This document shows positions 1-6,467 of a stretch of 64,000 nucleotides of DNA, in pieces. Position 1 is the first letter of the stretch. Every line of letters begins with the position of its first letter. This DNA comes from Pseudomonadota bacterium (lineage in GTDB: Bacteria; Pseudomonadota; Gammaproteobacteria; Xanthomonadales; Xanthomonadaceae): NCBI GenBank assembly GCA_021821195.1, contig JAKACT010000006.1, positions 1-64,000 on the forward strand, read 5' to 3'. Below the pieces are notes generated by a model. It did not search any database and was not told the DNA's origin. It was given only the letters and a program-made list of their open reading frames with translations. The position numbers and the translations under genes are program-made.

Positions 1-100
1 GCGCGCGCACGCTCTCTCGCTCGCCACACCACAAGCAACTTCGGGTAGGATCGGTACGTGCGCTCTCGCGCTCGGGCGTCAACGCTTCGTCAGGCTTGGC

Positions 101-127
101 GCCCTAACAAATCGTTCAAGCCGACGC
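101..127 (+). other. Truncated left half of an integron attC site (R'' plus L''), cut by the IS left end
   Basis: GCCCTAACAAATCGTTCAAGCCGACGC matches the left arm of the complete attC at 1544-1603 (GGCTAACAATTCATTCAAGCCGAAGC), then the IS inverted repeat starts at 128. Confidence 0.6.
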
Positions 128-196
128 TGACCTGAGACGGATCGTGTAGCCAGTTGGCTGGTGAGTTCTCTACCCTTTACAGGCAAGGAGAGCTCC

Positions 197-460
197 ATGA
201 AGAAGCGATTCACCGACGAGCAGATCATCGGCATCCTGCGCGAGGCCGAGGTCGGCGCCATGTCGATCAAGGCCCTGTGCAAGAAGCACAACCTTACCGA
301 GCAGACCTTTTTCCGCTGGCGCAACAAGTTCGGCGGCCTGGACGTGCCCGATGCCCGTCGGCTCAAAGATCTCGAGTCCGAGAACGCTCGGCTCAAGCGG
401 CTGGTGGCCGAGCAGATGCTGGTCATCGACGGGATGAAGGAGATCGTCCGAAAAAAATGA
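197..460 (+). CDS. IS3 family transposase OrfA (helix-turn-helix plus leucine zipper)
   Basis: [47 protein letters not shown]...; typical IS407-group OrfA. Confidence 0.93.
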
Positions 461-1296
461 TGACCCCGTCGGAACAACGCGACACGGTCCAGATGCTGGT
501 CCGTCGGGGTCTCTCGCAGCGCAAGGCCCTTCGATACCTGGGCCTGAGCCGCCGCATCGCCAGCTACGCCCCGCGCCAGGCCGCCAAGGACCAGGCGGTG
601 GCCGAACGCCTGCTGGCCGCGTCGCCGAAGGTGCCGCGGTTCGGGTATCGCCGCATGGCGGCCTGGCTGGACCTGGGCGAGGCCCGGGTGCGGCGCCTGT
701 GGCGTCAGCTGGGTTTGAACATTCCCCGCCGCCGCCCGCGTCGCCGCCGTTCCGGCAACGACATCCGGTTGCCGGGCGCGGTTCGCCCGAACGCCGTCTG
801 GAGCTACGACTTCGTCCACGACCAGATGGTCGACGGGCGCGCCCTGAAGATGCTGTGCGTGATCGACGAGTACACCCGGGAATGCCTGGCCATCGAGGTC
901 GGGGCCAGCCTGCGGGCGCAGGACGTGATCCTGACCTTGTCGCGGTTGATGCGGATTTACGGCAAGCCGGCCTTTGTCCGCTCCGACAACGGTGCCGAGT
1001 TCACCGCGGCCAAGGTGATGCGCTGGCTGCGCGACGCGGCAATTGGTCCGGCCTTCATCGCGCCGGGCAGCCCCTGGCAGAACGGGTTCGTCGAAAGCTT
1101 CAACGGCAAGCTGCGGGACGAGCTGCTGAACCGGGAATGGTTCCGCAGCCGCGCCGAGGCGAAGGTGCTGATCGAGCGCTGGCGGCAGTTCTACAACGAG
1201 CAGCGGCCGCACAGCGCCCATGGCTACAAGCCCCCGGCGACCGTTCGCCGGAACTGGGCAGAGCCCGATATCATCCACCTCGGACTCACTGGCTAG
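457..1296 (+). CDS. IS3 family transposase OrfB (DDE integrase, rve)
   Basis: DDE motifs in YDFVHD, DNGAEF and [17 protein letters not shown]; start ATG overlaps the OrfA stop (ATGA) after an A7 run. Confidence 0.93.
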
Positions 1297-1323
1297 TTGG
1301 CTACAAGTTCCATACTCAGGTCA

Positions 1324-1549
1324 CTCAATACCGTTCATTTTCGGCACGTATTCGGGCAGCTCACTCCTTGGTGGTGATAAGTGCAATGCAGTGCTTAACC
1401 AGATCTCTATCACTGCCTACACCAGCACTCATCGGTCAGAGCGCGCTATCGTTCCGGCGGGCAAGAGTTCTCAGATCCTTGCAGCCCCCATACAGATCGA
1501 CCGCGCCATTGAGCGAGAGCCTCTCTGGCCCGACGAGACTGGGGGCTAA
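1324..1549 (+). pseudogene. 3' remnant of a cassette ORF of unknown function, 5' end replaced by the IS
   Basis: The frame ...SIPFIFGTYSGSSLLGGDKCNAVLNQISITAYTSTHRSERAIVPAGKSSQILAAPIQIDRAIEREPLWPDETGG* enters from inside the IS and its TAA stop lies in the attC R'' 7-mer. Confidence 0.45.
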
Positions 1550-1603
1550 CAATTCATTCAAGCCGAAGCCGCTTCGCGGCTCGGCTTAATTCAGGTGCTA
1601 GGC
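1544..1603 (+). other. attC recombination site (integron cassette 59-base element)
   Basis: GGCTAAC-AATTCATT-CAAGCCGAAGCCGC-TTC-GCGGCTCGGCTTAATTCAGGT-GCTAGGC. Imperfect palindrome with a bulged A in the stem and outer 7-mers close to RYYYAAC/GTTRRRY. Confidence 0.8.
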
Positions 1604-1614
1604 AGCAGACCACA

Positions 1615-2010
1615 GTGACCCACGATCTCAGGAACCTGCTGGCCAACATGGCGCCAACGCTCAACCCGGGCACGTATGCCTTTGTCATCGCGCCTACTGA
1701 CGTTCAAATCCCGCAAGACGAGGTCATCGCTTCCGTCAGGGAGCCAGAGGGGCTCTCGCTGGTGATAGCGGAATCCCTCGCCCGGAACCTCAACCTACCT
1801 GTTGCCTACTCCGCGGCGTGGATCACGCTGGCCGTTCATTCCGACTTGGCCGCAGTCGGCCTGACAGCCGCATTCTCCAGTGCGTTAGGCCAGGCAGGCA
1901 TCAGTTGCAATGTCGTCGCCGGCACGCACCACGACCATCTCTTCGTACCTGTCGAACATGCACGGCACGCCATGGAAATCCTGACCGAGCTGCAAGCGTC
2001 CGCTGCCTAA
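1615..2010 (+). CDS. ACT-domain-containing protein (integron cassette gene)
   Basis: MTHDLRNLLANMAPTLNPGTYAFVIAP...GISCNVVAGTHHDHLFVPVEHARHAMEILTELQ resembles tandem ACT (CASTOR-like) proteins; GTG start 12 bp after attC; TAA stop inside GCCTAAC. Confidence 0.7.
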   Translation: MTHDLRNLLANMAPTLNPGTYAFVIAPTDVQIPQDEVIASVREPEGLSLVIAESLARNLNLPVAYSAAWITLAVHSDLAAVGLTAAFSSALGQAGISCNVVAGTHHDHLFVPVEHARHAMEILTELQASAA

Positions 2011-2106
2011 CAAATCGGCCATGCCGACACCATTCCGCTGCGTCGGCAGAGCCTCTATGATCGTGGCCCTGCCGACGCCGCGAAGCGGCGCGGCCTGACT
2101 CCTGCA
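2005..2106 (+). other. Degenerate attC-like site (expanded or decayed)
   Basis: Perfect RYYYAAC 7-mer GCCTAAC at 2005-2011; stem GCCGACGCCGC-GAA-GCGGCGCGGC at 2071-2094 with a bulged A as in the first attC; right arm CTGACTCCTGCACC resembles an eroded TTAATTCAGGTGC. Confidence 0.5.
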
Positions 2107-2127
2107 CCAGCCCTTGCGGACTTCGAC

Positions 2128-2433
2128 ATGGCCTTTGATCCCATTCCTACCGCAGCGCTCGGTCTCCTCGGCATCATCTTGGTGGTGGTGGCGCGCGCGG
2201 ATCGACGGGCAGAGAAAAACGAACGCCGCTTGCTTGAATTGCTCCGGCACTTCGGCATGGAGGACGTCAGGCACCCGGCACCGTCGGACGAGGTACTGGC
2301 GTTTCTCGCCAAGGGGCAAAAGACCGCTGCCGTCCGCCAATATCGGCAAGACACGCGCCTGGGGCTGAAGGCGGCGCTGGAAGCAATCGAATCCTTTCCA
2401 ACCCCAGCTTCGGCCGGTGCGCGGGAAGGATGA
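2128..2433 (+). CDS. Small membrane-anchored protein with a ribosomal L7/L12 C-terminal (ClpS-like) type domain; cassette-like
   Basis: N-terminal TM segment TAALGLLGIILVVVARADRR; C-terminal EVLAFLAKGQKTAAVRQYRQDTRLGLKAALEAIESF resembles the L7/L12 CTD (KIEAIKxYRExTGLGLKEAKxxVE). Confidence 0.6.
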   Translation: MAFDPIPTAALGLLGIILVVVARADRRAEKNERRLLELLRHFGMEDVRHPAPSDEVLAFLAKGQKTAAVRQYRQDTRLGLKAALEAIESFPTPASAGAREG

Positions 2434-2440
2434 TCCCACC

Positions 2441-2490
2441 AAGCCTGCGCTGCGCCGCGTTGCGGCGTGGCTGGACTCGGGTGCTTTGCC
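2441..2490 (+). other. Degenerate attC-like hairpin
   Basis: AAGCC...CGCCGC-GTT-GCGGCG...TGGCTGGACTCGGGTGCTTTGCC aligns to the first attC right arm GGCTTAATTCAGGTGCTAGGC. Confidence 0.45.
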
Positions 2491-2509
2491 ATGCAAGCAA
2501 TGGAGCTAA

Positions 2510-2731
2510 ATGATGGGTACAGCGTTCTGGCTGAAGCGATTCCTGCTGGCAACGACGGTGGCCTTCTTCGTCCTTTTCGGCACAAGGCTCGCCAAAGGGC
2601 ACCCGCAAATGGCGGCACTTCAATTCGCCGGGGGGTGGGCCCTTGCCACCGGCGTGGCCTTTACCCTCGCTGGCTATGCCCGCTACAGGCGCAATCCCAG
2701 CTGCTGGCTCCCTAAAGATCGCAGGGCGTAG
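2510..2731 (+). CDS. Small membrane protein (two predicted TM helices), unknown function
   Basis: MMGTAFWLKRFLLATTVAFFVLFGTRLAKGHPQMAALQFAGGWALATGVAFTLAGYARYRRN; SD-like GGAG upstream. Confidence 0.5.
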   Translation: MMGTAFWLKRFLLATTVAFFVLFGTRLAKGHPQMAALQFAGGWALATGVAFTLAGYARYRRNPSCWLPKDRRA

Positions 2732-2760
2732 GTCCAATGTGGCCCTCGATCCGCCTTGCC

Positions 2761-2801
2761 CACCGCCGCGTTGCGGTGCGTCCTGCCCCAGGCGCCGGGC
2801 C
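2761..2801 (+). other. Degenerate attC-like hairpin
   Basis: CACCGC-CGCGTT-GCGGTG followed by CAGGCGCCGGGC, which differs from the first attC end CAGGTGCTAGGC only by transitions. Confidence 0.35.
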
Positions 2802-2802
2802 C

Positions 2803-3168
2803 ATGTGCCGGCTTGTCGCCTCCACCCTCTTGGCGCTGCCCTTGGGCTGCGCCACTAGCCAGTCGGCGCCATCGAGCGTCCTTGCGACCAAGTCGTACTT
2901 CCTTGTCCTCTGGTCCCACTGTGCCGAGGGAGAGGTGGATTGCCGCCAACTCACCGGGGATCTTGTACCCGCGGACACGAACAAGGCCGTCCACCTAACC
3001 GGCAGCACCCGGATGGTCGCGTGCGCAGGCGGGGCCACGCCCTGCCATGTTGGCTACTACGCCTTCACTGGCGCGGGGTTTTCGATCCTTGCATATCCCG
3101 ACGGCACGCTTGAGGTCACGCCGCCCTCTGGATTGCGCACCACTGAAAAAGGCACGTGGCGATACTGA
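2803..3168 (+). CDS. Small putative lipoprotein, unknown function
   Basis: Signal plus lipobox MCRLVASTLLALPLGCATS; Cys-containing mature part (SHCAEGEVDCRQLTGD..., CAGGATPCHVGYY). Confidence 0.55.
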   Translation: MCRLVASTLLALPLGCATSQSAPSSVLATKSYFLVLWSHCAEGEVDCRQLTGDLVPADTNKAVHLTGSTRMVACAGGATPCHVGYYAFTGAGFSILAYPDGTLEVTPPSGLRTTEKGTWRY

Positions 3169-3364
3169 AACCAGGCCGAGCCGCCCAAGCAAACTTGCGT
3201 GCGCCTAGGCCCTGCGCGATGCCGCGAATCCCCGCGGATTGCACTGGTTTCCATTGACCTGCCGGACTTGCGCAGGCTGGCGGCAGCCGAACCCTTGGAC
3301 ATGCCGGCCACGCAGGAGCGCCGCCCCCGCCACATGCCGTCGTCCGGCTGGCGACGGGCGCGGC

Positions 3365-5921
<2,557 letters not shown>

Positions 5922-5922
<1 letters not shown>

Positions 5923-6467
5923 TGACGCTGCCCGCCTATCCCGCCGACGTCCTCGAACGCGCCGCGCGCATCCGCCTGGTCGGCTTCGACGTCGACGGCA
6001 CCCTCACCGACGGCGGCCTGCAGTTCGACAGCGACGGCCGCGAGCACAAGCGCTTCCACGTGCAGGACGGGCTGGGCCTGGTGCTGCTGCGCCACGCCGG
6101 CATCGAGGTGGCGCTGGTCAGCGCGCGACGCAGCGAAGTCACCCTTGCGCGCGGCCGCGAGCTGAAGGTGGCGCGCCTGCACATCGGCGAGCGCGGCAAG
6201 CTGGACTGCATGCGCGGCATCGCCGCGGACATGGGCATCGGCATGGACCAGGCCGCCTTCATGGGCGACGACCTGCCCGATCTGGCGACGATGCGCGCGG
6301 TCGGCCTTGCCATTGCGCCCGCCAACGCGCATCCGTGGGTGCTGCCGGCCACGCATTGGGTCACCCCGCAACGCGGCGGCGACGGTGCGGCGCGCGACGC
6401 CTGCGACCTGCTGCTGCACGCGCAGGGCAAGGTCGAGGCGCTGCTCGAACACGGCGAGCACCCGTGA
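5922..6467 (+). CDS. kdsC: KDO-8-phosphate phosphatase (HAD)
   Basis: VGFDVDGTLTDGGLQFDSDGREHKRFHVQDGLG; synteny. Confidence 0.95.

Follow-up and report, generated by a model that had tools for sequence, protein, structure and literature searches.

Between the first base of contig C5 and murA, this genome carries a short run of small plus-strand ORFs separated by hairpins that range from a textbook attC to stem-loops of little apparent resemblance to one. Is this the worn end of an integron cassette array, or an ordinary stretch of chromosome that happens to begin beside one? The window analysed here is the first 64 kb of that contig (base 1 of C5 is the window start) in a Xanthomonadales assembly of 2.92 Mb in 13 contigs. 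The original prediction, made from the window alone, was that of a decayed chromosomal-integron array with four progressively eroded sites and perhaps a fifth. Our analysis supports it for sites 1–4 but not for the fifth. We conclude, with a probability of roughly 0.9, that the window begins with the distal, and thus oldest, end of a chromosomal integron that has a full-length intI, and that its sites are decaying in place.

Detection of attC sites

The attC training set was drawn entirely from other members of the genus, with the window sites excluded, and two covariance models were built from it, one for a 60-nt class (R1) and one for a 108-nt class (R2). All 64 kb were scanned on both strands with filters off. 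A strict two-arm pattern scan missed both significant window sites, and the trained models were used instead. Right arms were assessed by the number of matches to the consensus (of 22) relative to shuffles of the same intergenic gap, and hairpins by the folding of the single DNA strand relative to shuffled sequence, expressed as a z score.

Exactly two significant matches were found in the window, at 1544-1603 and 2005-2112 (Table 1), and both are attC sites with statistical certainty. An Rfam search of positions 1-6000 returned no relevant family. The first match bears out the near-canonical attC that had been predicted there. Its arms match the consensus at 22/23 (left) and 21/22 (right) positions, its R′ is GCTAGGC rather than the usual GTTAGGC, and its fold z is −3.3. 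The second had been described as a hairpin at 2071-2094; it is indeed an attC, but the hairpin is only part of it. The search does not stop at the near-canonical site, as the second reaches E 3.5e-12 with a model derived from other genomes. Its left arm is nearly intact (19/23), its right arm is eroded (14/22) and its fold z is −3.9. The right core site has been destroyed, GTTAGGC now reading roughly CACCAGC, and an alignment with an intact attC of the congener G001 (L259:817-925), on the cassette that holds the ORF1 relative, shows mostly substitutions, with an indel in the right arm. The stop codons expected inside the left 7-mers are present, as GGC[TAA]C at 1547-1549 and GCC[TAA]C at 2008-2010.

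Table 1. Features of the array end beside murA, in window coordinates, and the attI-like core on contig C2
Feature	Position	Strand	Details
attC left half (R″/L″ side)	101-130	+	GCCCTAACAAATCGTTCAAGCCGACGCTGA; right half missing beyond the IS
IS3-family element, 1161 bp	145-1305	+	Ends TGTAGCCA...TGGCTACA, inverted
Cassette gene 3′ remnant, truncated by the IS	1306-1549	+	Open frame from the IS to 1549
attC 1, 60-nt class, nearly intact	1544-1603	+	R1 80.2 bits, E 3.4e-19 over 64 kb
ORF1, 131 aa	1615-2010	+	Two ACT domains (ACT_3, ACT_7; Pfam E 3e-14, 5e-10)
attC 2, 108-nt class	2005-2112	+	R2 45.8 bits, E 3.5e-12
ORF2, 101 aa	2128-2433	+	Apparent N-terminal membrane segment (by eye)
attC 3, strongly decayed (putative)	2434-2490	+	Stem-loop and part of right arm only
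ORF3, 73 aa	2510-2731	+	Small apparent membrane protein (by eye)
attC 4, very strongly decayed (putative)	2732-2801	+	Right arm ends CAGGCGCCGGGC at 2800
ORF4, 121 aa	2803-3168	+	Probable lipoprotein (MCRLVASTLLALPLGCA, by eye)
Gap to murA, array end	3169-3364		murA at 3365-4636, − strand
attI-like core (candidate)	~C2:3619-3639		GGTCGACTCAGGTGTTAGGTG, by eye; similar core in G002

The sites nearest murA

The two further hairpins of the original prediction do exist, and their right arms lie above chance, but neither obtains a significant attC score nor folds better than shuffled sequence. The right arm of site 3, TGGCTGGACTCGGGTGCTTTGC at 2468-2489, matches the consensus at 15/22 positions (p 0.004 in its gap) and ends 20 nt before the next ORF, while that of site 4 matches at 14/22 (p 0.018 in its gap) and ends 2 nt before the start of ORF4. 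The best covariance scores were 8.5-9.6 bits for site 3 and 3.1-3.4 bits for site 4, and both sites remained insignificant even with the search limited to 401 bases. Folded as DNA strands, the two hairpins are at shuffle level (z −0.19 and −0.06).

The corresponding places in a relative, however, hold attC sites. In locus L251 of a genome of another genus (G357), which carries a relative of ORF3, the place of site 3 is held by a recognisable attC (25.8 bits, E 3.6e-6) and that of site 4, after the ORF3 relative, by another (38.2 bits, E 3.4e-10). The DNA similarity between the window and L251 at ORF3 runs into the leader beside the attC. Since the right arms beat shuffles and adjoin the following ORF, and the ORF3 relative is bounded by attCs, position and homology support reading sites 3 and 4 as probable decayed descendants of attCs, not as functional attCs. 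A fifth remnant, proposed at 3201-3210, is not above chance; p is 0.22 for the best-matching right arm of that gap, which is at another position.

The four cassette ORFs

Each interval holds one plus-strand ORF, as predicted, and ∼400 genomes of the order were searched for homologues of the four. In G001, a cassette gene with intact attCs on either side (L259:427-819) shares 72% identity with ORF1; relatives of ORF1 also occur where no attC was detected in the vicinity. ORF3 shares 65% identity with the cassette gene at L251:1501-1716 in G357, which likewise has attCs on both sides. For ORF4, for which an alternative longer start at 2737 would cross site 4, a 36% identical relative (L240 in G077) is a cassette within a stretch of seven attCs and has its stop in GCCTAAC. 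Judged by homology, these attC-bounded relatives identify ORFs 1, 3 and 4 as gene cassettes. The weak relative of ORF2 (L225 in G252; 39% identity over 41 aa) is also attC-bounded with its stop in GCCTAAC. The match is to a widespread domain: the C-terminal stretch of ORF2 weakly resembles the ribosomal L12 C-terminal domain (PF00542 E 0.04, below cut-off). Because the relative is weak and the matched stretch resembles so widespread a domain, ORF2 is the least certain cassette of the four.

In 20 further genomes of the genus, tblastn found none of ORFs 1-4 in the neighbourhood of murA; the genes are thus not a fixed feature of the murA locus in these congeners. Compared with their relatives, ORF1 (dN 0.22, dS saturated) and ORF3 (dN 0.25, dS 0.84) have changed mainly at synonymous positions, and so appear to have been kept as coding genes while the sites decayed; these are two-sequence comparisons, which do not give the age of the constraint.

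Placement of the window in the genome

No intI is present in the 64 kb of the window, as originally stated. A full-length intI of 335 aa is found elsewhere in the same genome, at C2:2466-3473 (TIGR02249 488.6 bits, cut-off 265), on a contig of 4089 bp and, by eye, near the 3′ end of an mfd-like gene. On C2 this intI is followed by the attI-like site, one cassette, an attC at C2:3878-3969 and the contig end. The C2 attC and the two significant window sites are all on the plus strand and point away from intI. The best ORF of that first cassette (L016:3634-3879) encodes 81 aa, weakly DUF551-like, and runs opposite to the usual cassette direction.

The order of these parts can be read in relatives. 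In the closest one, G002, whose murA is 95% identical to that of the window, intI and murA are contiguous, 3.6 kb apart with four attCs in between, and a lipoprotein-like gene behind intI is common to G002 and C2. The same order of intI, array and murA is contiguous in G016, over 40 kb with ∼94 attCs (loci L183, L184 and L165); the G001 array (L185, L258-L260) has ∼130 attCs over ∼67 kb. Since intI, array and murA follow one another without interruption in relatives, we infer that the integron array of this genome has its distal end in the window, that it probably runs from C2 to C5, which are unjoined in the assembly, and that its middle is unassembled. An array without an integrase (CALIN) was rejected, given the intI in the same genome and its syntenic position.

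Additional intI-like genes occur in the genus. A second one above the family cut-off is present in G002, G008, G010, G001, G017 and G023; two lie in tandem, ∼0.1 kb apart, in G001 and in G010, and one copy is apparently split in G023.

An IS3-family element upstream of the first complete site

Upstream of attC 1 lie two features that the original prediction did not mention, an attC left half and an IS3-family element. Within the left half, positions 105-124 match exactly the degenerate left-arm pattern of the genus attCs. The element has a two-ORF transposase (161-460 and 457-1296; NCBIfam transpos_IS3 E 1e-65, Pfam rve), and copies 93% and 92% identical with exactly the same 1161-bp ends are found in G004. 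No target duplication was seen at the element, which suggests, by inference, a deletion adjoining it. On its other side, the truncated cassette gene runs into attC 1, its stop lying in the left 7-mer GGC[TAA]C, and has no Pfam or NCBIfam match.

Decay at the ends of this and other arrays

In the window, the match to the attC consensus drops towards murA, from 43/45 to 33/45 and then, for the right arm alone, to 15/22 and 14/22. The last sites of the G016 array score 41, 41, 37 and 32, a graded loss without any IS. We compared both arms of the terminal sites with the consensus in the seven other arrays at hand, which do not form a designed sample. In five of the seven, no more than one site scores below the terminal attC: it ranks worst among 94 sites in G016, 51 in G010, 4 in G002 and 10 in G252, and second worst among 133 sites in G001, where G001 and G010 share some array-end sequence and are not fully independent. 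It is unremarkable in G019 (13th of 75) and G009 (9th of 24). Over the last two sites, mismatches average 2.7 in the left arm and 4.5 in the right, against 1.0 and 1.0 for interior sites. No description of a distal gradient of attC decay was found in the non-subscription literature searched.

DISCUSSION

New cassettes are inserted at attI, so that distal cassettes are the oldest, and excision requires two working R′ core sites. The window may be explained on this basis. New cassettes would enter beside intI and displace older ones outward, and attC sites at the far end of the array would mutate. A cassette that has lost its right core site, where crossover takes place, would no longer be excisable; in time, cassettes with good sites would disappear and those whose sites are broken would stay, accumulating distally. 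The noncoding right arm would erode faster, the left arm being slowed because it overlaps the end of the gene, whose stop codon lies in R″. The enclosed genes, still open and coding, would be turning into ordinary fixed chromosomal genes. The genes at the very end of the array can probably no longer leave the chromosome.

The alternatives differ in how much of the array they accept. If the sites were stand-alone terminators or REP-like hairpins with no relation to an integron, their appearance as GC-rich stem-loops behind short genes would be accounted for. Sites 1 and 2, however, match attCs of the genus from end to end (E 3e-19 and 4e-12), which refutes this reading for those two, and the genus contains intI and arrays of up to ∼130 matching sites; we give the idea practically no credence. 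One could instead accept ORF1 as a cassette and take ORFs 2-4 as ordinary genes between murA and the integron, with hairpins 3 and 4 as chance stem-loops. The failure of those hairpins with both the covariance models and the folding test fits such a view, as do the ordinary-looking genes between the last attC and murA in G002 and G016. Four observations argue against it. The 65% relative of ORF3 in another genus has an attC on either side, with homology extending into the leader; the relative of ORF4 is an attC-bounded cassette; the right arms match the consensus better than shuffled sequence does and stop 20 and 2 nt short of the following ORF; and the ORFs are absent beside murA in the 20 congeners. 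We regard it as very unlikely.

Local rearrangement, through IS3 activity or deletion, might also have produced the right-hand boundaries, in place of decay of the attCs by point mutation where they stand. Just upstream, both a cassette and an attC have been cut short by an IS3-family element that lacks a target duplication, and Vibrio arrays are reported to carry IS3-family elements at their last cassette (PMC11023631, PMC1382264). Yet the differences between attC 2 and the intact G001 site are mostly substitutions, with one right-arm indel, and the end of the G016 array shows its graded loss without an IS. This origin of the boundaries is improbable in our view, if worth some weight, and we favour the decay in place of the distal sites of a chromosomal integron.

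The integron system itself is ordinary. Like the sedentary chromosomal integrons of the Xanthomonadales, of which that of Xanthomonas is an example (PMC12444791), it has a tyrosine recombinase IntI and attC-bounded cassette arrays, with a candidate attI-like site in the place of their attI, and the cassette genes in both are small and mostly of unknown function. The Xanthomonas integrons lie downstream of ilvD and their intI is often inactive (PMC12444791), whereas the present array is flanked by intI and murA, has a full-length intI and is decayed at its distal end. In Vibrio, cassettes have been proposed to undergo ‘de-recruitment’ when the attC is lost (PMC1382264), which, as here, would leave cassette genes fixed in the chromosome through loss of the 59-be/attC. 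The Vibrio inference concerned genes that had undergone non-specific integration, while the present locus has graded intermediates in place. The Vibrio cholerae superintegron, for which an IS3-family element was reported in the last cassette (PMC11023631), is also a large array; the serial erosion of attCs is the feature of the window. The graded decay at the array end seems little described and modestly novel.

For the annotation of such arrays, attC searches that demand significant scores would miss the last boundaries. Because these terminal boundaries fall below a significant score, estimates of array length and of the number of cassette genes may be slightly too low. The window array would represent an in-place series of cassettes losing mobility, and offers a simple explanation of how integron cassettes may become ordinary chromosomal genes. 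Whether sedentary chromosomal integrons in general are subject to a ratchet, with distal attC decay continuously fixing cassettes through loss of the right core, is a more tentative matter, to which we give somewhat less than even odds. If true, the ratchet would be a one-way route from the cassette pool to the fixed genome, readable as a time series.
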